Source of the DNA: Candidatus Tenebribacter davisii
GTDB lineage: Bacteria; Cloacimonadota; Cloacimonadia; Cloacimonadales; TCS61
DNA length: 38,562 bases
Assembly (NCBI GenBank): GCA_030765535.1
Contig: JAVCCH010000098.1
Location: forward strand, 1 to 38,562
Direction of reading: 5' to 3'
Part shown: positions 1,840 to 21,052 of the stretch, in pieces
Position numbering within the stretch: the stretch's first letter is position 1
Layout of the letters: the number at the start of each line of letters is the position of its first letter
The notes under the pieces: model-generated
Seen by the model: only the letters and a program-made list of their open reading frames with translations
Database searches by the model: none
Told to the model about the DNA's origin: nothing
Position numbers and translations under genes: made by a program

Positions 1840-4800
1840 CTATAGTTGTTTAATTTGATCCATTGACATTTCTGCCATCTCGGCAAAATTACCTCCATCT
1901 TCTTTTAATTCTGATAACTCAGTTTCAATTTCCATTGGAACAACTAACCATTCAAATCTATTCTGCAAGTCAGAAACTATATTGGAAACACCTTCAACAT
2001 AAAATTCAGTTTCATCTTTGTGAATGTCGGAAAGTACACTATCATGTACCTGGCCAATTAACTTTGTTCTCAGCTTGTTCTTACGAATGAATTTTGCAAT
2101 CTCATTCAAAGTGAATAATAATAAATGGAATGATGAGCCTTGAATTGGGTAGTTGGTGCATTGCTTTCTATCCATGTACCCCTGAAACCTGAAACCGAAA
2201 TAAGTTTCAATGAATCCATATCGCTGATAAAACTCAATAGTATCCTTTTTCCATTGAGTATAATCAGGAAATCTTTCATTCCACATTTTATCTTCTATGT
2301 TTTTACAATGCTCAAGAAAAGACCCCTCTGAAGGCTCATATTTTTCCATTACTCCGAGTTCATAAATTCCTTTACTTTCAAGATGATCTTTTACAGAAAC
2401 CCCATTAGGGAATTCAAGTCCTCCTTCAACAACAATTTCCCATAATTTAGGAGCGCATGAACCAAACCAATCCCCATAGAACTGTGCAAATGTCCAATTA
2501 TTCTTGGTAAAGAATCTTAATTCTTTTATTTTCTTTTTCTGGGCTTTAGAATATTTAGAATTATTTTTATCCATCATATCAAAAGAAGCCATAAATATTT
2601 CTATTGCCAGGTCCCGATGCATATCTCCAAGAGTAATATCATGAATAAATGTTTTATCCATATGATATGAATTTTTTATAATTACCCCTGCTGACACAGC
2701 AAAATTATGCGCTCCTTTCACATTGATATTATAAACATCCTCATGCCCATGAAACTCTATTGAAACAATTTTATGATTATATTCTCTTTTATATTCAGCA
2801 AGTGTCATGTCATGCGCACTTTTTAAATGTGTGTTTGTCACATTTTTAAACATTTTTCCACAAACTTTGCATTCTTGATCTACTTTTTTATTTTTCCAAT
2901 ATTCTTTTTTACTGTCTGAAAGTTTTTTCACTTGGCTTTTGGGCAAAGTTCTACCTGACATACGTATAGATAGTGCTCTTTTTTGTTCATCAGTTTGTTT
3001 ATTTCCCCGTTGTGGGCATGAAACTCCTTTTATTGCTTTACTTATTTTTTCTTTATGTTCCTTAGATAATGGCCTTCTACGCTTGCCTTTATGATGCAAT
3101 GATACATGATCACTAATTGACATTATTTCGAGATTTCTTAAATCATTGTTTAATCTATTTTCATCTTTATGATGCATTACATTTCCTGAATCTTTCCCAA
3201 CTTCTTTTTTAAATACATCAATACCAATTAGAGTATGTTCCCCTATTGATTTTCTATTGTTTAAATTAATATGCCAATAGCCATTCTTTTCTTTTTTATA
3301 GAAGGGCATTAAACTCATGCCAATTTTTAAATTTTGCAATTCAACGTATTTACCTTCTGCCTTACTTCCATGTCGAATCATAAAATTATGTTCTTTCGTT
3401 GCTTTAATACATTTTCCATTATCAAGGGTTACTTTCCATACTTCTTGCTTTTCCCCAGTAATACCACCCTCTGTAACTTGTGCAATTTTTATTCTTTTTT
3501 CTATTAAATCATACCCATAAACAAAAACATTTTCAGTTTTTATTCTTTTAATTATCTGCTTAATTGATTTAGATCCCTCAATAGTTTCAATTTTTGTATC
3601 CCCTGTTACACACGCACTCGTTACAATTTCTGCCCCAGAGAAATCTTGTTCTGCAAGTCTACAATTTTTAGAAGGAACAATACCCTTTCTAATTAATGCT
3701 TTAATAATTGCATCTCTGTTGGGAATATTTTGAAAATTAGGGGCGCTCGAACTGGAACGATAGGAAATCGGAATATGAAGGTCAAAAAAGGGATGGATGA
3801 TTCCGTTTACTTCTTCCCTGATAAACTGCGCAAGATAAGTTCCTTTGCATTTTTCTAATTTCTTTATTTCTATCAGTTTATCAACAAAAGGAAGATTTAA
3901 AGTTTCCAGCGTGGGCTTGTCTGTTTTGTAATTCCCGTTAGCAGTTAATACAGGTGATTTCCCCAACACTTCATAAAAGAGTTTTCCTAAATCAGCATTT
4001 GAAGCAATGTTTATTTCCCTGTTGTATGTTTCCTTGAATTTTCTGGCCTCTCTACCTTCAATCAGTGATTTATTCAGTCCTTTCATTTTTATATTCAGAT
4101 CTTTTTCAGATTGTTCATAATATTCCATATCAATAGGAATTCCATTGTTTTGGATTGTCCCCATAGTATGAAGGCCACGCATGAATAACTTATATGCTTT
4201 AAATCTGTTTTTTAATCTTGGTAGAACCATTGATTGATCTTTGTATCTCATCATTGTGAAAATACAATCTAACCCATTGTATATCAATAACTCCCTGAAT
4301 GGGGCTTTTTCGATTGTATTAAATTCCTCATTCTTTGACTTCAAAAAGGGAGCTATCACATTATCATACGGACGAACACCGTAATTTACGAAGGCTTGAA
4401 ATTTTAGTCCTGTAGAAGCTCGGCGATTATCTAAAATATGTTCAGCCATCATTGTGTCCCAGTGCCACCTTGTTGCCCTTGTTCCGACATGAACTTTTGA
4501 CCAAGAATCTTCAAACTTCCAATTCTGAACTACTTTTTTAATATCATTGTCACGGAGAATTCTTTTCCATAATAATTTAATAGTTTCAAATTCTACATTA
4601 GTCCAGAATGATTTATAATTGAACGGAAATGCATATGCTTTTTCGGTAGATACAGCAATTCCAATAGTTGAAAGTTTATGTCCTTCCCTATATGGCTTCA
4701 GCCCTGTTGTTTCATAATCAAATGCTATTGTAGGCTTTTTATTCAAGATTCGTTTTAAGAGCGATTTAACAGCTTTGAAATCAGTAAGTATAGTGACGTA

Positions 4801-6444
4801 CTGCTCATAGTCATTAAAAGCTTCATACGTTCGTTTCAGACAGTGAGAAACACGTTTCATATCTTTGACAAACGTACATTTTAGATTTTTGTCTTTTTCT
4901 TTATCAACTATGAGTTTTGGATGATACAATGGGACAATGAAACAACCAAACTTTTGATCCGGGATTTCGTATGCTCTCCATCTTGCTACTTCTCTATTTG
5001 AAAAATCTTCCCCGAATAGAGAAGTATTTGCAAGACTACCGAGAGTTATGATTAATTTTGGCTTTAATGTTCTGATTGCTTTTTCTACGTGGGGGTAACA
5101 GCACTTTATTTCTTTATGTGTTGGAATTCTGCCATTAGGTGGTCTGCAATTATGGGATACTATACCACCTGCAATAAACGAGTGGTCTTCCTCAACTTCC
5201 AAACAATATAGATATTCCTGTCTTTTTTGTGTATATATTTCTATATGTTCAATTTTTGTTGTTGTGAATACATATTCCCCTGAGTGATTTTTTAAAATTC
5301 GTTTCAATTCTTCTATTGGATTTTCTGAGGATATAAAAACTATGTCATGCCCATTTTTAATTGCTATTTTAGTTCGTTCATCATATCTTATTTTTTTTGC
5401 TTTTTTACCGTGGTAAAAACTTTTGGGGTTTTCTATTTCTACAAGAAGATTGTGATCTTTGATAAAATAATCAAAATTTAGCACACCTATTGAATACTGA
5501 TGTATAAAATTAATTTCCTCTTTAATTAACCAATTACCAAGAACAAATTCTCCAGATCCAACTATTATTCCTGTATATAAAGAATTTATTCTTTCTCGTG
5601 ACTGTGCATTTTTTTCATAGCAAGAAGTTTTTGATTCTTTTGTTCTTTTATCCTCTGAACAAAATACCCCTTCTTGCACTAATTGTTTCATTTTTTTATT
5701 GGCTTCTTTCGTTATTGTTTTCTTGTCTCTTACTCCATTTTTATATTGTGCCTTCATGAACATTGATGTTGCTTTATTATAACATTTTTGACAGCATGTT
5801 GACATTGTGCCATCATAAACTCTGGGATTTTTATTGTATATTTTTCCACATATTATACAAGTTTCCCCAAGCACAGATATATTATCATTCGTTTTTAAAT
5901 TTATTGCGGAAATCCATTTTTTACCGTTATAAAATTTATGGTCTTGTGTAACAGTGTACGATTTAAATTTTGTTTTTATACGTACAAGTTTCTCTTTATT
6001 CATTCTAATATTTTTGGGAAGATCATGTATTCTTGACAATACTCTTCTGAATCTGCCCTTATGAGTTAAAACTAAATCACCTACACTAACATCTGATATA
6101 TATTTATACCCTTTAGAAGTGTAAACTGATATTTTAGGGTTTATAAAACAACTTACTGCATTCATTTTCCAACAATCTTTATTCAGTGATATTTTGTGTA
6201 CTTTAAGTTCATCACCGAGAAGTTTACCAGGATCACCCATTAATGATGCTCCATAAAGATCTTCTTCCTCACTTGGATAGTCAGATATTATAAGAATGCC
6301 CTTTCTACCTTCCCCCGTAAACTTGATTTTTGGATTCATGCAAGTAGATTGTAACTTACATTTACCACATTCAGGCTCAAGTTGGTACACATCTATGACT
6401 TTAGATGCTGACTTTATAATTTCCCCTTGAGTAAAGAACCCCAT
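1840..6444 (-). CDS. Uracil-DNA glycosylase-DNA polymerase I fusion, with two inteins
   Basis: 1534 residues unspliced, 886 after removal of two inteins (residues 99-432 and 945-1258). N-terminal extein: a family-4/5-like uracil-DNA glycosylase domain with CGKC (26-29), CRPPNGR (433-439), a C449-Y-P motif and LYHPK; the usual GEAPG motif is altered to SDYPSEEE, so activity is uncertain. Next comes a 3'-5' exonuclease with DYE (576-578), QNWKFED and NGLDC. Then a family A polymerase with motif A DFSGAE (934-939), a motif-B-like region RFFTKNNWTFAQFYG, and motif C QVHDS (D1468). Motif C has Ser where cellular Pol I has Glu. AAGGAG lies just before the ATG, and the sliding clamp gene is 8 bases upstream. 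It is the likely replicative polymerase. Confidence 0.92.
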   Translation of the reverse strand: MGFFTQGEIIKSASKVIDVYQLEPECGKCKLQSTCMNPKIKFTGEGRKGILIISDYPSEEEDLYGASLMGDPGKLLGDELKVHKISLNKDCWKMNAVSCFINPKISVYTSKGYKYISDVSVGDLVLTHKGRFRRVLSRIHDLPKNIRMNKEKLVRIKTKFKSYTVTQDHKFYNGKKWISAINLKTNDNISVLGETCIICGKIYNKNPRVYDGTMSTCCQKCYNKATSMFMKAQYKNGVRDKKTITKEANKKMKQLVQEGVFCSEDKRTKESKTSCYEKNAQSRERINSLYTGIIVGSGEFVLGNWLIKEEINFIHQYSIGVLNFDYFIKDHNLLVEIENPKSFYHGKKAKKIRYDERTKIAIKNGHDIVFISSENPIEELKRILKNHSGEYVFTTTKIEHIEIYTQKRQEYLYCLEVEEDHSFIAGGIVSHNCRPPNGRIPTHKEIKCCYPHVEKAIRTLKPKLIITLGSLANTSLFGEDFSNREVARWRAYEIPDQKFGCFIVPLYHPKLIVDKEKDKNLKCTFVKDMKRVSHCLKRTYEAFNDYEQYVTILTDFKAVKSLLKRILNKKPTIAFDYETTGLKPYREGHKLSTIGIAVSTEKAYAFPFNYKSFWTNVEFETIKLLWKRILRDNDIKKVVQNWKFEDSWSKVHVGTRATRWHWDTMMAEHILDNRRASTGLKFQAFVNYGVRPYDNVIAPFLKSKNEEFNTIEKAPFRELLIYNGLDCIFTMMRYKDQSMVLPRLKNRFKAYKLFMRGLHTMGTIQNNGIPIDMEYYEQSEKDLNIKMKGLNKSLIEGREARKFKETYNREINIASNADLGKLFYEVLGKSPVLTANGNYKTDKPTLETLNLPFVDKLIEIKKLEKCKGTYLAQFIREEVNGIIHPFFDLHIPISYRSSSSAPNFQNIPNRDAIIKALIRKGIVPSKNCRLAEQDFSGAEIVTSACVTGDTKIETIEGSKSIKQIIKRIKTENVFVYGYDLIEKRIKIAQVTEGGITGEKQEVWKVTLDNGKCIKATKEHNFMIRHGSKAEGKYVELQNLKIGMSLMPFYKKEKNGYWHINLNNRKSIGEHTLIGIDVFKKEVGKDSGNVMHHKDENRLNNDLRNLEIMSISDHVSLHHKGKRRRPLSKEHKEKISKAIKGVSCPQRGNKQTDEQKRALSIRMSGRTLPKSQVKKLSDSKKEYWKNKKVDQECKVCGKMFKNVTNTHLKSAHDMTLAEYKREYNHKIVSIEFHGHEDVYNINVKGAHNFAVSAGVIIKNSYHMDKTFIHDITLGDMHRDLAIEIFMASFDMMDKNNSKYSKAQKKKIKELRFFTKNNWTFAQFYGDWFGSCAPKLWEIVVEGGLEFPNGVSVKDHLESKGIYELGVMEKYEPSEGSFLEHCKNIEDKMWNERFPDYTQWKKDTIEFYQRYGFIETYFGFRFQGYMDRKQCTNYPIQGSSFHLLLFTLNEIAKFIRKNKLRTKLIGQVHDSVLSDIHKDETEFYVEGVSNIVSDLQNRFEWLVVPMEIETELSELKEDGGNFAEMAEMSMDQIKQL
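2671..3612 (-). mobile_element. Intein 2 in polymerase motif A (HNH nuclease)
   Basis: 314 residues, Cys945 to Asn1258, with junction FSGAEIVTSA|SYHMDK. Block A is CVTGDTKIETIEG, block B is ATKEHNFM, block F/G is VYNINVKGAHNF...GVIIKN, and Ser is the +1 residue. The insert contains an HNH motif (VMHHKDENRLNNDLRNLE), a NUMOD3-like LSKEHKEKISKAIKG, and a C-x2-C...H zinc finger (CKVCGK...HLKSAH). It interrupts the polymerase catalytic motif between Asp934 and the following GDMH, so splicing must occur for the polymerase to work. Confidence 0.92.
5149..6150 (-). mobile_element. Intein 1 in the glycosylase domain of the polymerase (PD-(D/E)xK-like nuclease)
   Basis: 334 residues, Cys99 to Asn432, giving extein junction NAVS|CRPPNGR. 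Block A starts with Cys-Phe; VSVGDLVLTHKGRFRRV follows; block B is VTQDHKFY; the end is SFIAGGIVSHN before Cys+1. The centre has a CIICG...CCQKC zinc-finger-like segment and a stretch with FDYFI, LLVEIENPK and YDERTKIAIKNGHDIVFI. This resembles a PD-(D/E)xK/Vsr-like homing nuclease rather than LAGLIDADG. The splice boundaries are clear; the nuclease class is inferred. Confidence 0.88.
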
Positions 6445-7450: not shown

Positions 7451-8572
7451 TTACACCCCATTATTTTTATATGTGTCTATATCTTTTTTTTCCAATTTAT
7501 GATTTTTAATTCCATCATCTGACTGGATATAATCCTCAAAAGAAATCTTTGAATTTATACCCCGCATTAACCAATAATGTCTAAATGCACGACCTAATTG
7601 CAATGTCCAATGTTTCCCAACAAAAAGATCCTTGGTACTCAGACTATTTAATGGTCTATAATATTGGGGATATGGGCGAATTTTTAAGTCGCTGCATGTT
7701 CTTGCTCTGTAATACGAATCTTGTGGCTTATCATTAAAATTAAATAAAACATAAGCCATCATATTACTTGGAGGTACTCCAGCATCTATAAGCATTTTAG
7801 CAGCATCTTGAAAAATACCATCTTCCTCAATTCTATCAAACGCTATTCTCATGCCATTTCGTATAAATTTAAGTTCAGCTAATCTTTTTGCTTTTTCTTT
7901 GGTAATATACTTTACATCAAATCCATTTTCAAAAAGCACTTTTTTATTATGCTCAAGAGTAAAATCAATAACTTCATATAAATGTTTAATTGGTGCTGCT
8001 GATAAATTGTTATCAAATATCATTAGATTTGGTTTTGATAGATCAACTACTTTTTTCCAATGTTTATTAATCCATAAACCTTTTTCTATTCTTGGTACCG
8101 GGCAATATTTGCAAAAATTGACGCATCCCCTGGTGGTAAACACGTAAGAAAATGTATCCCATGGATCTTCAATGTTCCACATAATTTCAGGATCAGGAGT
8201 ACATAAGTCCAAACGTTTTGAATACCCCGAAAATAAGTATGTATTTTCAAAATCTTTAAAAGCTTTTGGCATTAATGAAGAAAAGACCCCTCCAAATAGA
8301 ATGGGTGTATTTTGATTGAAAAACCCACGTTGTTTTGGAATTTTTAATACAGGGTCAGAATAATAGGTAAATAAAGTTGTTACACATATTAAATCATATT
8401 TTTTTGGTAATATATGATCTGAAAAATCAACTTCTTTCCCGGCATCCTTCAAATATGTTTTTATTTTAGCAAGTCCAAGTGGAGGATATTTTTTTCTATA
8501 ATTAGGTTCTATGAGTAATACATTTTTTGCAGCATCAAACATTTCAAAAACTTTTTCTTCAGTAATAATCAT
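7451..8572 (-). CDS. Radical SAM enzyme with cobalamin-binding-like N-terminal domain
   Basis: 373 residues from the ATG at 8572, which overlaps the methyltransferase stop (ATGA) and has AGAGGA upstream; a longer in-frame extension exists but lacks a good SD site. The N-terminal NVLLIEPNYRKKYPPLGLAK...YLKDAGKEVDF pattern is that of B12-binding-type radical SAM proteins. The cluster motif is C150-x3-C154-x2-C157 (RGCVNFCKYC). The substrate is unknown. Its position between a cytosine methyltransferase and the sliding clamp suggests base or nucleotide modification linked to replication (inference only). Confidence 0.8.
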   Translation of the reverse strand: MIITEEKVFEMFDAAKNVLLIEPNYRKKYPPLGLAKIKTYLKDAGKEVDFSDHILPKKYDLICVTTLFTYYSDPVLKIPKQRGFFNQNTPILFGGVFSSLMPKAFKDFENTYLFSGYSKRLDLCTPDPEIMWNIEDPWDTFSYVFTTRGCVNFCKYCPVPRIEKGLWINKHWKKVVDLSKPNLMIFDNNLSAAPIKHLYEVIDFTLEHNKKVLFENGFDVKYITKEKAKRLAELKFIRNGMRIAFDRIEEDGIFQDAAKMLIDAGVPPSNMMAYVLFNFNDKPQDSYYRARTCSDLKIRPYPQYYRPLNSLSTKDLFVGKHWTLQLGRAFRHYWLMRGINSKISFEDYIQSDDGIKNHKLEKKDIDTYKNNGV

Positions 8573-9454
8573 AATATATCCTCTAATAGCCATAATTTTA
8601 ATAAAGAATAAACACAAAGAGGAACTTGTCCATTACCTATAGCATGAATTCTTTCTTTTTGATATTTAACTGATTTAATCGGCTTAGGTTTTTTTAAATT
8701 ATTAATAGTCCATTTTGGAAGTACAATTTTCTTTAATGGTTTTAAGGATGTCCAGTTTATAGGCCACCCCATTAAAAATTCAAATATAATTGGATTTGTG
8801 CTTAATTGATTTCGTAATAAAGTTTTTGCTGATTCAATATCGTAGATATCTGTAAATTTTTTGATATTTGTTTCATCTTTAGACCCACCCCTAAAACCAT
8901 TAGTAGAATTAATTGTCGGGGTTACTGTTTCTCTCTCCAAAAATCCATAGTCTATTCCTTTTATGGAGTGCTCCCACATCTTTTGCTGATAAAGTACTCC
9001 ATCTAATATTATACCCGAGTTTGGACAAATCTCCGAATATGGAATAGATGTAGGGAAAAGAGAGCAAGTTCGGTACGTTTTCAAAAATGAAAAATCTTGG
9101 TTGAATGATGCGAATGGTCTCTTTCGTTGCTGGCCACATATCTCTTTCATCGTCTTCAGCTTTACGTAGTCCCGCAGAACTATATGGTTGACAAGGTGGT
9201 CCTCCTGTGATGATATCAACCATTCCCTTATATGCTTTGGCGTAACCTTGTTTGTTAAATTCTTGGATATCCCCAAAGATTGGGCATTTATCAAGCAATC
9301 CGTCCTCTTGTCTTTGTTGCAAGATCTTTTGACAGTATGCATCCCATTCCACCATTCCAATTGTTTTGATATCAAGAAAAAGGGAGGTGCCAATTAAGCC
9401 ACCTCCCACTCCAGAAAATAAACTTAATTCTCTAAGCTTCAACTTCTTTGTCAT
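8569..9454 (-). CDS. C5-cytosine DNA methyltransferase, broken by a +1 frame change
   Basis: Two overlapping frames together make one methyltransferase. Frame 1 (9454-8909, 181 residues) has motif I LSLFSGVGGG, motif IV GGPPCQPYS with catalytic Cys88, motif VI ENV and motif VIII RNRLWIFG. Frame 2 (ending at 8569) has the target-recognition/motif IX region, NPIIFEFLMGWPINWT and motif X IGNGQVP. Removing one C from the CCCC run at 8918-8921 joins them into a 294-residue protein of normal order. It may be an assembly error, a real mutation, or a natural two-polypeptide enzyme as in M.AquI. The start overlaps the upstream Lys-rich gene by 23 bases and has a weak SD site. Confidence 0.85.
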
Positions 9455-11121: not shown

Positions 11122-13821
11122 TTAGAAACCTTTATAATACGAGTCTAAATATACTTGGCCCGCTTTAATATCCTGTAAACATATGCATTGAACACCTGGA
11201 ATAAATGGTTGTGATCGTGCTTCTGTTATTCCGTACTTTAATATACCAGCCGCTTTCTCAGCAGGGGTTTGATTTAGCCCACACATCATATTGACATGCT
11301 GGTTCTTTCCATAAAATCCTGCCTGATGCGTGGAATCAAGTGCTGTTGCCTTATGGCCTTCTTTATTTGCCTGAGTAGCTGTAATAACCAAAGCATTGAA
11401 CTCGCCAGCCATTCGTGCCATCAGTTTCCAAGCTTCATCAACTGCTCTATAGTCATCAAATTTTGAACCTACATCCAAAATATCAACATAATCAATAATG
11501 AATATATCAGGAATGAATCCATCTTTAGCTTCAAATATTTCAATGTCTCGCATCATTTTATCGTAGGTAAGTGTATATTTTGGATGAACGGACAACCTTG
11601 CATACTTATTGAATGTATTTGCCATTCCTTCATTTCTTAATTTTCCTTCAAGTAAATCTCTGACTGTGAAAATATCATCAGCTTCTCTGAATATGCTGGA
11701 ACTATAAATAGTCACATCAAATTCATGAAGATGAATTCCTTGACCTTTGCACTTAGTGCAAGGAATGTGAGTTGGATCATCTATTATTTCATCACCGTCA
11801 AGAATGATAACCCCTGAAGCTCTATCAGAACAATCTCCTGATTGATTCTTTTTGCAATCAAACACAGGGAATGGATAATCTCCAGCTTCTTCTATCATAG
11901 GTTGGAATGCCTTCATTATTCTTGGGGTGATTTCTGTTTGTGTCATCTCAACTGACCAGAAAATAGTTTTTCTCTTTTGAAGGACAGCATGTTTGTAATG
12001 ATCAACCAAGGTAAAGCTATTGTGTACAATAAACCCATCAGAAATAAAATTATGATTATCTTCTACTGATATATCATACATTTTTACTTTATCTTTTCTT
12101 TTAATTGATATTATAGAATCCCATAAAAGATCGTTGTTTAATGCTTTGTGATCAAATCCCATAACTTTTGAAAAAGTAAACCTTGATAAATGTTTATTAT
12201 CCTTGTAGGCTTTCCTAAAAGTTTCATTGGCAGCAATAGGTAATCCTCTTGCAATTAAATCATCACCAGCTTCTTTCACAAATTCTTTTGGTATACAATC
12301 AATATAATCTCTTTTCGGAATTAAATCTTTCACAAATTCCTTTGCTTTGGCAGCTTTGTGAAAAGAGAACCCTATCTTATTTACAAAATCAAGAACTCCT
12401 TGGTTACTCGAAATAATAATTTCATAATAAGTAGTCCCATTAACTATTTTTTCACGTAATTTACCAAAAATATTAAATCTATTCAGACAACAAAGGATTT
12501 GTTGAGCAAGCATATGACTTTTTGTAGAATAATCAACATGAACACAATTTCTGTCCATCCATATTGATCCATCACAGATGAATAGAGTATTTAGGAATAT
12601 TGTCATAGATTCATTATTAGATTGCATTACAATATCGGGGATAAATTTATCCCCTGATAATTTATCTTTTAAACCAACTGATTTTATAAATTTAGTGACT
12701 TTTCCAACATGTAATCGTATTTCTTTCCCTTCTCTCTCCATTCTGTAGGCATCAGATTTTGGAAGATTGTTAATAAAATCATCCATAATTTCTGTAGAGT
12801 ATTTTGTAAATGATATTGTTTTATTTGCTAAATGCCCATCAGCAATTAAATAAGCAAGAATTTTTAGCTTCTTTGGGTTTATAAATTTATCTGAAAAATT
12901 AGGAATAAATTTACTCATAGCAACACGATCATCAACTTTTAATTCTTTTAATCTTTTCCATCCAGTAGGTGTGTAGAATTTATGATCTTTTGAAGTAATT
13001 ATTTTTCTGCCTGATTTTGTTGTAATTTCATATTCATCTTTTTCTCCTGAGTACATCCAATCAGTAATCTTTCCCTTAACAATATTATGCTTTTTATCCA
13101 TGCAAAGGATACCAGATATTCCAAGACGAACTACATCTTTGATTTTCATGATACGTCCGTCTGCAAGATATACAAGAGAATTTTCTTCCACGCATTTCCC
13201 TCTTTTTGCTGGAGCATAATAACCGACAACATCACCACGTTTATAATTCCCAAGATATCTTCCAAGATCACCAGGAAGTTGGAAGAAGTTTTTATCCTCT
13301 TCTTCTCGTTTCCTATATATTTCCATGATTTGGTTGACATCACCAAGATTTATCAGATTTCCAGAATCAAGATCCAGAGTTACTTTCTTGAATCTATTGA
13401 TTTCATCTTCAGCTTCATCGTACTCTCCCTTTTCCTTCAGAACGGAAACATTATTTACCACAATTTCTAATTCTCTTTTGCGGAAATAGTCAACAGCGCA
13501 ATCTTTTAAGTACTGAACATTGATTGACTCTTCATCATATTGCTCAGATAACTGTTTTAAAAGCTCTGAGATCAATTCTGAGTCCGATTCTTTCAGTTTG
13601 AGTACCTCAGTATCAAATATGTCGCTAATGTGCTTGTAAGGGGCTTTAGAATGCTCCGCATAAAATTCAACACACCACGTAGCAATTGTTTTCAGATAAG
13701 AGTTTACAAAATAGTCAAGTTGAAATACTGGAATAATATCTTTAATAAATTGAGTTGATGTTATTAATCCAGTGACCACTCTTTTCTCTTCTACCACAGA
13801 CACACTTCTTTCAATGATCAT
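11122..13821 (-). CDS. dnaB: DnaB-like replicative DNA helicase with a P-loop intein
   Basis: 899 residues, 507 after removal of the intein at 210-601. The spliced P-loop reads APAKRGK|S, followed by a TIFWSVEMT segment, Walker B-like DIFIIDYVDIL and ITATQANKEG, the usual DnaB RecA-fold sequence. A Cys-rich insertion (CKKNQSGDCSD and CTKCKGQG) looks like a zinc-binding element between the core strands. The start (ATG at 13821) overlaps the stop of the upstream winged-helix protein by ATGA, and AAGGT precedes it. Expected role: ring helicase at the fork, working with the primase at 17754-18695. Confidence 0.9.
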   Translation of the reverse strand: MIIERSVSVVEEKRVVTGLITSTQFIKDIIPVFQLDYFVNSYLKTIATWCVEFYAEHSKAPYKHISDIFDTEVLKLKESDSELISELLKQLSEQYDEESINVQYLKDCAVDYFRKRELEIVVNNVSVLKEKGEYDEAEDEINRFKKVTLDLDSGNLINLGDVNQIMEIYRKREEEDKNFFQLPGDLGRYLGNYKRGDVVGYYAPAKRGKCVEENSLVYLADGRIMKIKDVVRLGISGILCMDKKHNIVKGKITDWMYSGEKDEYEITTKSGRKIITSKDHKFYTPTGWKRLKELKVDDRVAMSKFIPNFSDKFINPKKLKILAYLIADGHLANKTISFTKYSTEIMDDFINNLPKSDAYRMEREGKEIRLHVGKVTKFIKSVGLKDKLSGDKFIPDIVMQSNNESMTIFLNTLFICDGSIWMDRNCVHVDYSTKSHMLAQQILCCLNRFNIFGKLREKIVNGTTYYEIIISSNQGVLDFVNKIGFSFHKAAKAKEFVKDLIPKRDYIDCIPKEFVKEAGDDLIARGLPIAANETFRKAYKDNKHLSRFTFSKVMGFDHKALNNDLLWDSIISIKRKDKVKMYDISVEDNHNFISDGFIVHNSFTLVDHYKHAVLQKRKTIFWSVEMTQTEITPRIMKAFQPMIEEAGDYPFPVFDCKKNQSGDCSDRASGVIILDGDEIIDDPTHIPCTKCKGQGIHLHEFDVTIYSSSIFREADDIFTVRDLLEGKLRNEGMANTFNKYARLSVHPKYTLTYDKMMRDIEIFEAKDGFIPDIFIIDYVDILDVGSKFDDYRAVDEAWKLMARMAGEFNALVITATQANKEGHKATALDSTHQAGFYGKNQHVNMMCGLNQTPAEKAAGILKYGITEARSQPFIPGVQCICLQDIKAGQVYLDSYYKGF
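12019..13194 (-). mobile_element. Intein 3 in the DnaB P-loop (LAGLIDADG nuclease)
   Basis: 392 residues, Cys210 to Asn601, junction AKRGK|SFTLV. Block A is CVEENSLVYLADGRIMKIKD, block B is TSKDHKFYTPTG, and the end is MYDISVEDNHNF...GFIVHN. Two LAGLIDADG helices are visible: LKILAYLIADG (residues 319-329) and FLNTLFICDGS (409-419). The insertion lies in the ATP-binding loop between Lys and Ser, a classic intein site in ATPases. Confidence 0.92.
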
Positions 13822-18705: not shown

Positions 18706-19599
18706 TTATTTATATTTTACGTGTATAAATTTCAATACTTCTTTTATTCCCAAATTCTCCATGCAATATTCATATTGTTTTGGATGTGTCTTCTTCATTT
18801 TTTGAAATCTATTTATATAAAATATTCCAGCAAGTTCTCTGTGAACCCCGAACATGCAGAACATACAGCCTGTACCTCTGCGGGATTCCTCTCCTTTATA
18901 TATCTCGGAATAATCAATATTATATTTTGCAATATAATTAAGAATATCCTTATTAGTCCAAAATCCTAAAGGAGTGCTGATAGGTCTATTTGATGAGAAA
19001 GCATTACATCCATTTTGCAAGTATGTATATTGTCTTTGATTACTTTCTTCAGCCATTGTCCCTAAAATGCCTTTATTCTCTGTTTCTTTTTCATATTTTT
19101 TAATTGGATCTTTTTTCAATTTATTACAACATTTATGAGATATTTTAAAAGGGGCATCTATTAAGAATTTCCATTTTTCTGCTAATTTACCATTTCCATT
19201 CTCATCCCCATGCAGCCTTTTGTTTAATAATTTTTCTGATTTAGTAGTTCTAATTTCATCCAATATTTGTGCAGTTGATTTGGAAATAACAGGATATCCA
19301 TATTTTTCAATCACTTTATGAAAAGGCATTTTAGGTCTGATTGATGTTACATTATCAAAGCTTTGTGCAAAATTCTTAATCTCAGGATATTCAAGACCAG
19401 TATTAATAAACACAGAAGAAATATCAGGATAAATAGATTTAGCAATATGTAAAAGAACAGTACTGTCTCTTCCCCCAGAAAAACTTATATAAACTTTTCC
19501 TTCCCAATATTCATACCACTCTATTATTCTTTCCCTGGTAATTTTAATTTTTTCAGATAAAGAAAGACTTTGTAGAATTTTCAAATCCTGTATGTTCAT
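18706..19599 (-). CDS. PP-loop ATPase of the PAPS-reductase (CysH-like) superfamily
   Basis: 297 residues. PP-loop SFSGGRDST (residues 39-47), then FINTGLEYPE, a HKCCNKLKKDP motif, ILGTMAEESNQR, and a C-terminal GTGCMFCMFG. These match the phage 'phosphoadenosine phosphosulfate reductase' family, which keeps the ATP-pyrophosphatase fold but lacks the CysH ECGIH catalytic tail. The true substrate is unknown. The Cys pairs suggest an iron-sulfur or zinc site and possible sulfur transfer to a nucleotide or RNA. The start overlaps the nucleotidyltransferase stop (ATGA), so the two are coupled. Confidence 0.82.
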   Translation of the reverse strand: MNIQDLKILQSLSLSEKIKITRERIIEWYEYWEGKVYISFSGGRDSTVLLHIAKSIYPDISSVFINTGLEYPEIKNFAQSFDNVTSIRPKMPFHKVIEKYGYPVISKSTAQILDEIRTTKSEKLLNKRLHGDENGNGKLAEKWKFLIDAPFKISHKCCNKLKKDPIKKYEKETENKGILGTMAEESNQRQYTYLQNGCNAFSSNRPISTPLGFWTNKDILNYIAKYNIDYSEIYKGEESRRGTGCMFCMFGVHRELAGIFYINRFQKMKKTHPKQYEYCMENLGIKEVLKFIHVKYK

Positions 19600-20073
19600 A
19601 CTGACTCCATTTTTCTGATTCCAATTCGTTCATATTTTTTGTTTAATATACCTCTCTGAACTTCCTTAATACATTGAAATAATTTCACCCTATTTTTCTT
19701 ATCCTTTATCATATATTTAGGAAATGTTCTAAGAATTCTTGTTGCTCTTTTCCATATTTTTAATTCTGTTTCCTGCCAAACCATCAGTATATTATATACC
19801 TTTGCTTTAGTACTTATTCGATAAGAACGGAAATATCTTGCTTTCCCATATGTATCTCTATCAGTTTTAAGACAACTTGGGATATTTAGTTCAATATGAG
19901 GATTATTGAATTTTATCTCGATATTTCTTCTTTCTAATTGTTTTTTTGAAATCACTAAATAAAATAACATAATCCCAATCAGAATCTTCTGTTTCGGTTC
20001 CGAATTTTCTTGACCCTGTAAGAAAACCAATATTTTCAACTATTTCTATTATTTTCTTTCTGGTTTTATTCAT
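19596..20073 (-). CDS. Nucleotidyltransferase (Pol-beta fold), broken by a +1 frame change
   Basis: From the ATG at 20073 (AAGGTG upstream): MNKTRKKIIEIVENIGFLTG, then GSRKFG (20-25) and SDWD (Asp32, Asp34), the metal-binding pattern of minimal nucleotidyltransferases. The frame closes at 20 further residues, but the next frame continues with RRNIEIKFNN and DRDTYGKARYFRSYRI. Removing one base from the A7 run (19941-19947) gives one 158-residue protein. Likely an assembly error, otherwise a real mutation. Coupled by ATGA to the PP-loop gene. Confidence 0.7.
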
Positions 20074-20084
20074 TTTTTTCACCT

Positions 20085-20171
20085 TTATAATAAGAAAATA
20101 CAGATCATATTTCCAGCACATCCCACAACTAAACCAATTATTAATCCTTCAAAAAATAATAAGGCGTGCAT
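20085..20171 (-). CDS. Very small membrane peptide (28 aa)
   Basis: 28 residues; MHALLFFEG then a hydrophobic stretch LIIGLVVGCAG and ICIFLL. GGAG lies 5 bases before the ATG, and the stop is 11 bases before the nucleotidyltransferase start. Codon pattern and spacing fit the operon. Probably a single-helix membrane peptide; role unknown. Confidence 0.5.
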   Translation of the reverse strand: MHALLFFEGLIIGLVVGCAGNMICIFLL

Positions 20172-20173
20172 AA

Positions 20174-20830
20174 TTACTCCTTTAAGTAGTTTTGTTGTCC
20201 ACAAGATGCGCCTAAATCAATCCCATCAGTAGTATACATTTCTATATTCATTTTCATAGGTTTAACTGTACAACCATTCCAATTATTGAAGGTTGTAAGT
20301 TTAACATTATCAGCCCCAATAAAACCTGCCAAACCTATAGCTCCAGAAATATCAGCACCTTCTATGAGTATTACATTAACTTCTTTTGGACCAGAATACC
20401 TTCTGAGTGATGCTAAGATGTAGCCAGCAGAAAATGAAGCTTGTACTTTTATATTTAAATTTGGATAATCATTGAGTAATTTCACCCCTGGTCTGGTAGG
20501 TCTGGCTGTAGATAATGCATAATTACCATCTAACTCCACAAAGCAATCAATTACACATTGAAGATTTTCAAAAGGTTCCCCCTGCCCCATGCATGAATAT
20601 AATACGGTTTTATTTCTTGGTATATTAAACATCTCAATTCCTAACAACATCTCTCTTGTTGTTAATGATCTGATAAAAGGTTGTGTACTTGAAATGCAGA
20701 ACGAGCATCTAACACCACACCCAATTTGACTTGGAAAGCATATGATTTCTTTTTCAGGTCTTGCCACATGGACAAACGATACTTTATGATTGTCGTGTGT
20801 GGTAATCCATTTTTTAATTGTTTTATTCAA
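20174..20830 (-). CDS. Compact RlmN/Cfr-like radical SAM methylsynthase
   Basis: 218 residues from a TTG start, with AAGGAGG 10 bases upstream. The radical SAM motif is C38-x3-C42-x2-C45 in CFPSQIGCGVRCSFC. Cys31 stands seven residues before the first cluster Cys, as Cys118 does in E. coli RlmN, and the C-terminal DLGASCGQQ (Cys210) matches the RlmN DAACGQL motif with the methyl-carrying Cys355. SCMGQGEPFENL matches the RlmN MGMGEPLLN motif. It lacks the RlmN N-terminal accessory domain (RlmN is ~384 residues). It should methylate C2 or C8 of an adenine in RNA; the substrate is unknown. Confidence 0.82.
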   Translation of the reverse strand: MNKTIKKWITTHDNHKVSFVHVARPEKEIICFPSQIGCGVRCSFCISSTQPFIRSLTTREMLLGIEMFNIPRNKTVLYSCMGQGEPFENLQCVIDCFVELDGNYALSTARPTRPGVKLLNDYPNLNIKVQASFSAGYILASLRRYSGPKEVNVILIEGADISGAIGLAGFIGADNVKLTTFNNWNGCTVKPMKMNIEMYTTDGIDLGASCGQQNYLKE

Positions 20831-20835
20831 TGTAT

Positions 20836-21052
20836 TTATTCCTCCTTAATTGAATCCATCATAATTCGTTTACACATTTCCAGTAACCACATAACTGTTC
20901 CATCAGCATATGTTGAGGCTGCATACACTTCTCCTTCTTTTATCAAACCCAATCAAAACAACACCTTCTAATTGACCCTTTGCTGCCCCTAATACTTTAC
21001 CCACAGGGGTGTCCAGTTTTGTTATACATCCTATTGGTATAATTTTAGCCAT
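20836..21052 (-). CDS. Small hypothetical protein (71 aa), broken by a +1 frame change
   Basis: ATG at 21052, sharing one base with the upstream stop (TAATG). Frame 1 gives MAKIIPIGCITKLDTPVGKV...GVVLIGFD; the adjacent frame continues KEGEVYAASTYADGTVMWLL to a stop at 20836. Removing one base from the AAAA run (20938-20941) makes a 71-residue protein. Not recognised. Confidence 0.6.

Follow-up and report, generated by a model that had tools for sequence, protein, structure and literature searches.

Judged from its sequence and its modelled fold, the protein of 218 residues described here is a divergent homologue of the radical SAM enzymes RlmN and Cfr, with a match far above chance. What sets this short protein apart is a shortened barrel and not the loss of the N-terminal docking domain, a point overlooked in the initial annotation of this DNA. 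We propose, and give the proposal about an even chance, that the short protein is a phage offshoot of the class A radical SAM methylases that methylates a small or unpaired adenine-type target and not A2503.

Family identity and phage setting

Against the NCBIfam RlmN model TIGR00048 the short protein scored 57.1 bits (E=1.4e-15, residues 4-98 only), which is below the curated cut-off of 290 bits. The Cfr models TIGR04432 and NF000424 gave 37 and 36 bits, not reaching their curated cut-offs of 530-550 bits, and the CfrAB model matched at E=2e-9, again weaker than the RlmN model. A sequence search of the PDB returned RlmN and Cfr, the weak C-terminal matches landing on the Cys that carries the methyl group in Sphaerobacter RlmN and in Cfr. 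The AlphaFold model (pLDDT 82.5, pTM 0.82) contains the RlmN-like partial TIM barrel and the preceding beta extension, with the last barrel helix missing. When this model was compared with the PDB by Foldseek, the first ten matches were all RlmN chains (E 3e-10 to 7e-9), with TM-scores on the query of 0.63-0.76 for RlmN structures and E. coli RlmN as the best match (5hr7, E=3.1e-10). In BFVD, two phage proteins led, 284 and 302 residues long, one of them from 201phi2-1. No other radical SAM family outscored RlmN/Cfr by sequence or by fold. With TIGR00048 and Foldseek E-values this low, the kinship to RlmN/Cfr suggested in the initial annotation is well supported.

The window, that is the whole stretch of 38,562 nucleotides analysed, is the initial 38.6 kb of a contig of 102,562 bases that is present in IMG/VR and was binned within a 3.0-Mb genome. 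Beyond the window the contig carries genes for a large terminase, a portal, a major head protein and a J-like tail protein, and the gene for the short protein therefore sits in a tailed phage. Its coordinates and its length had been given correctly; the strand, which had been left unstated, is minus. PADLOC and PHROGs searches with the short protein gave no result. The gene is delimited as follows.

20174..20830, minus strand: CDS of the 218-residue short RlmN/Cfr-like radical SAM protein (from the reading frame, TIGR00048 and Foldseek)
20830 and 20174-20176, minus strand: TTG start and stop codon of this CDS
20841..20847, minus strand: Shine-Dalgarno AAGGAGG, read from the sequence, with the TTG start ten bases downstream

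Adjoining this gene is a PAPS-reductase-like gene (18706-19599 of the window, minus strand) that matches phrog_424 at E=1.9e-49 and has weak matches to BrxP and SspD. Another radical SAM gene, encoding 388 residues with a B12-binding-like N-terminal region (phrog_9298) lies at 7451-8617, also on the minus strand. Three minus-strand genes of the window appear to be split by single frameshifts, namely a C5 cytosine methylase-like gene (8569-9454), a nucleotidyltransferase-like gene (19596-20121) and a gene for a small protein (20831-21051); these frameshifts may be sequencing errors. A modification cassette comprising the PAPS-reductase-like and nucleotidyltransferase-like neighbours was considered and set aside, as no such genes were recognised beside the nearest relative (L138). 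Three further genes of this phage carry apparent inteins.

1840-6444 and 11122-13821 of the window and 98424-100841 of the contig: apparent intein-bearing genes for DNA polymerase, DnaB-like helicase and UvsX-like recombinase

Active site and barrel of the short protein

With RlmN (TIGR00048; E. coli PDB 3RFA and 5HR7; Sphaerobacter 6FZ6) the short protein shares the radical SAM barrel fold, the beta strands preceding the barrel, CX3CX2C, MGxGEP, the resolving Cys seven residues ahead of the first cluster Cys and the C-terminal methyl-carrier Cys in CGQ. RlmN is longer, at about 346 residues, and only RlmN has the docking domain and the SPRR loop. The short protein differs further in having Ser for Glu105 and SFS for SLH, and in being without the invariant Arg and the last barrel helix. 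In Cfr (TIGR04432, NF000424; PDB 9P0P), C105 and C338 are the counterparts of Cys31 and Cys210 in the alignment, but the match is weaker than that to RlmN, and the short protein is without Cfr's 23S rRNA-binding N-terminal domain and Arg184/185 loop. The positions concerned are these.

20777..20779, minus strand: Ser18 codon at the otherwise invariant Glu position (RlmN E105), Glu in 39/39 and 72/72 relatives
20738..20740, minus strand: Cys31, in alignment with the resolving cysteine (RlmN C118, Cfr C105); invariant column, ungapped alignment to Cfr C105
20696..20719, minus strand: CX3CX2C cluster motif with Cys38, Cys42 and Cys45 (RlmN C125, C129 and C132)
20573..20590, minus strand: MGxGEP, residues 81-86, the SAM-binding GEP motif; M81 aligns with RlmN M176
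20426..20443, minus strand: end of strand 4, QASFSA, residues 130-135; Ser132 is unchanged but the invariant His is substituted
20285..20287, minus strand: Asn182, which appears to correspond to the conserved Asn that follows strand 6 (LTxxN)
20201..20203, minus strand: Cys210 in ASCGQQ, in alignment with the methyl carrier (RlmN C355, Cfr C338); invariant column

The cysteines named in the initial annotation (Cys31, the CX3CX2C cluster and Cys210) are all present and aligned with their RlmN counterparts. For Cys31 and Cys210 the alignment agrees with a place beside the SAM/cluster site, but the C-terminal loop of the model has a modest pLDDT of about 63-75. When aligned with 39 viral relatives, the short protein retains 16 of 21 invariant columns, including all five mechanism cysteines, M81, G84, N89, S132 and CGQ, and also K7, Q35 and G37. 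The sequence contexts of both RlmN-specific cysteines, C-X6-C and G-x-D-x-x-A-x-C-G-Q, are kept as well. Since the identity to the nearest relative is about 28-35%, the retention of the five cysteines together with M81, G84, K7, Q35, G37 and N89 points to selection acting on the active site.

The columns lost are E18, G48, the His and the Arg after strand 4, and N160. In a second alignment, of viral and cellular proteins, both the Glu at position 18 and the Arg after strand 4 were found in 72/72 relatives. By its spacing of 13 residues before C118, this Glu corresponds to RlmN E105, for which strict conservation and a position suited to deprotonating the methyl-carrying Cys have been described (PMC9692996). 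The Ser18 codon is TCG, more than one base from any Glu codon. Following QASFSA, the ...R...P stretch and the helices of the relatives are missing, and in the model comparison the last barrel helix, which follows the LTxxN Asn in relatives, is missing after Asn182. The view that all parts special to dual-specificity methylsynthases had been kept thus does not hold, since Ser18 replaces an otherwise invariant Glu and the SxH...R segment is absent.

The distance from Cys31 to Cys210 is 179 residues, compared with 224-254 between the two catalytic cysteines in the complete viral relatives (71 among the matches listed), apart from one apparent intein carrier at 578. In the model of the nearest relative, L143, three helices (158-164, 170-173 and 175-184) separate strand 4 from strand 5, and another (239-251) precedes the final strand; that of the short protein has a single short helix (135-142) in the corresponding stretch and no final helix, while the barrel strands are still modelled. 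In all, about 50 barrel residues have been lost, spread over several gaps. A search pattern built around the short spacing had the short protein itself as its sole true match in IMG/VR, and among its 14 matches in GTDB (84,980 species genomes) there was no second short-barrel case, although the pattern requires several exact codons and more divergent short forms could escape it. Few of the GTDB matches were real RlmN genes; most of these had normal spacing and were matched out of frame, and two had internal deletions. L146 and L153 are cellular RlmN genes from metagenome bins with in-frame internal deletions, possibly degraded copies or assembly faults.

Docking-less relatives in phages

Scanning IMG/VR for CxxxQxGCxxxCxFC gave at least 119 stretches, and among the matches listed were 71 distinct complete viral RlmN-like proteins. 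The short protein has 30 residues before its first Cys (Cys31), compared with about 103 in cellular RlmN. The initial annotation was right that an N-terminal docking domain (HhH2-like) is absent, but this is not distinctive, as most viral relatives among the matches listed are likewise docking-less (55/71, with 70 residues or fewer before the first Cys). The SPRR loop before strand 3 is also missing in 54 of these 55, the one exception being a cellular-type protein assigned a late start. Among phage isolates, Salmonella phage Arash, Stenotrophomonas phage ANB28, Tunturiibacter phage Tunturi_5 and 201phi2-1, for example, match docking-less genes along most of the gene.

These docking-less phage proteins (phrog_24834 and phrog_27142, 'Fe-S-cluster redox'), for example those of Pseudomonas phage 201phi2-1 and Tunturi_5, Arash gp133, L143 and L090, have the same cysteines as the short protein and are its nearest relatives in sequence and tree, L143 being nearest and L090 farther off. 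Unlike the short protein, those of them that were aligned have Glu105, SxH...R and a complete barrel. In the maximum-likelihood tree the short protein was placed with L090 and L137, the latter being the same gene as L143, and fell within neither cellular RlmN nor the large viral cluster. Its placement is unsure, however, as no other branch of the tree is as long (5.1 changes per column). A search of the open-access literature found no paper on docking-less phage RlmN-like proteins. MT836046, a tblastn match in the phage database, was rejected as a normal RlmN of 346 residues beside cellular-type genes. The phage RlmN-like gene of L086 (1459-3384) carries an apparent intein directly behind the last Cys of CX3CX2C.

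Target recognition by RlmN and Cfr depends largely on their grip on folded RNA. In the Cfr-rRNA complex the N-terminal domain touches H91, while Ser182, Arg184 and Arg185 touch H90 (PMC13001441); by our alignment these three residues fall within the SPRR loop. Furthermore, an N-terminally truncated Cfr has been reported to be unable to methylate A2503 (PMC8752094). The loss of both the docking domain and the SPRR loop suggests that the docking-less phage enzymes do not read the same RNA. That substrate recognition differs, which the initial annotation had stated as a necessity, can fairly be inferred from the absent RNA-docking parts, in place of its "must".

Reaction, target and alternatives

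As a methylase, the short protein would bind one [4Fe-4S] cluster and SAM, and the methyl group of SAM would be transferred to Cys210. There the 5'-deoxyadenosyl radical would activate it for addition to an sp2 carbon, with C2 and C8 of adenine as the likeliest positions, and Cys31 would resolve the crosslink. A stand-in for Glu105 would be needed, either another residue or a slower ionisation of the thiol. Since grips for an RNA helix are lacking, the target would probably be an adenine, in RNA, DNA or a nucleotide, that is small, single-stranded or supplied by the phage, and not A2503 in 23S rRNA or A37 in tRNA. The gene neighbours of the short protein gave no hint of a substrate. Counting against the methylase proposal are Ser18 in place of Glu105, the change or loss of Asn160 and of the His and Arg that follow strand 4, and the fact that the short form is here a single sequence with no close homologue from which to gauge purifying selection.

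The retention of cysteines and motifs speaks for continued methyl-carrier radical chemistry, and the loss of the Glu, His and Arg for a chemistry that is changed or failing. The main alternative, conceivable if on balance doubtful, is that the gene is a decaying or catalytically changed relic of a docking-less RlmN-like gene, its product no longer methylating and perhaps only binding SAM or useless. The Glu105 equivalent, SxH...R, N160 and the last helix are lost where all relatives retain them, its branch is by far the longest, and neighbouring genes are frameshifted. Against decay, the frame is open behind a good ribosome-binding site, the barrel strands are still present in the model, and random decay would not favour the retention of every mechanism cysteine, MGxGEP and CGQ. 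Non-methyl radical chemistry, with the two cysteines as hydrogen donor or carrier in a reaction on a nucleotide, DNA or peptide, appears quite unlikely. The base thought to form the methyl-carrying thiolate (PMC9692996) is indeed lost from a retained radical SAM core, but both RlmN-specific cysteines are kept in their contexts and no radical SAM family scores better. That the short form is a longer gene distorted by faulty assembly or sequencing is scarcely credible. Three nearby genes look frameshifted and there is a single assembly, but about 50 residues missing in several gaps could not arise from single-base errors, and tblastn of a relative gave one continuous in-frame match across the locus with no convincing piece in another frame.

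The initial annotation had also named A2503 as a possible target. The homology and the conserved cysteines would permit methylation of A2503 or of A37 in tRNA, as by ordinary RlmN, and other phage RlmN-like genes sometimes lie within tRNA arrays. Nevertheless we consider this very unlikely, since the docking domain and Arg loop contacting the rRNA (PMC13001441) are absent, truncated Cfr is inactive (PMC8752094) and the bin holds a complete RlmN, which, if the bin is the host, makes a duplicate housekeeping role needless. A search for tRNA genes across the 102.6-kb contig found none, which also counts against this reading. The suggested Cfr-type protection of ribosomes from antibiotics by C8 methylation is without support and can be given next to no weight. 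The CfrAB model does match, but the RlmN model scores higher, both far under their cut-offs, the RNA-binding parts that Cfr uses are missing (PMC13001441), and truncated Cfr is inactive (PMC8752094).

Returning to the methylase proposal, we tentatively suggest, as an unlikely extension, that compact docking-free phage methylases act on a new adenine-bearing target, be it RNA or DNA of the phage or a nucleotide, for instance one of the NAD type, with the short protein as their smallest member and without the canonical glutamate base. The idea of NAD comes only from other phages, where genes for NAMPT, NMN-adenylyltransferase and NADAR lie close to related genes; none of these NAD-salvage genes was found in the 102.6-kb contig of the short protein. 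Together with the short protein, which is missing a supposedly essential base, the docking-less phage proteins constitute natural deletion variants, useful for asking what a minimal methyl-carrier-Cys radical enzyme is and what its substrate may be.

Within 7 kb of docking-less phage RlmN-like genes, nicotinamide phosphoribosyltransferase genes were often seen (11 loci), as were NMN-adenylyltransferase/Nudix (nine) and NADAR genes (four), all as raw counts; these loci include L022, L047, L066, L068, L082, L085, L091, L112, L130 and others. The tRNA arrays around phage RlmN-like genes comprise 17 tRNAs in L087 and four in L163, while that of L074 has ten along with a tmRNA, and such a position would suit a tRNA target in those three phages.
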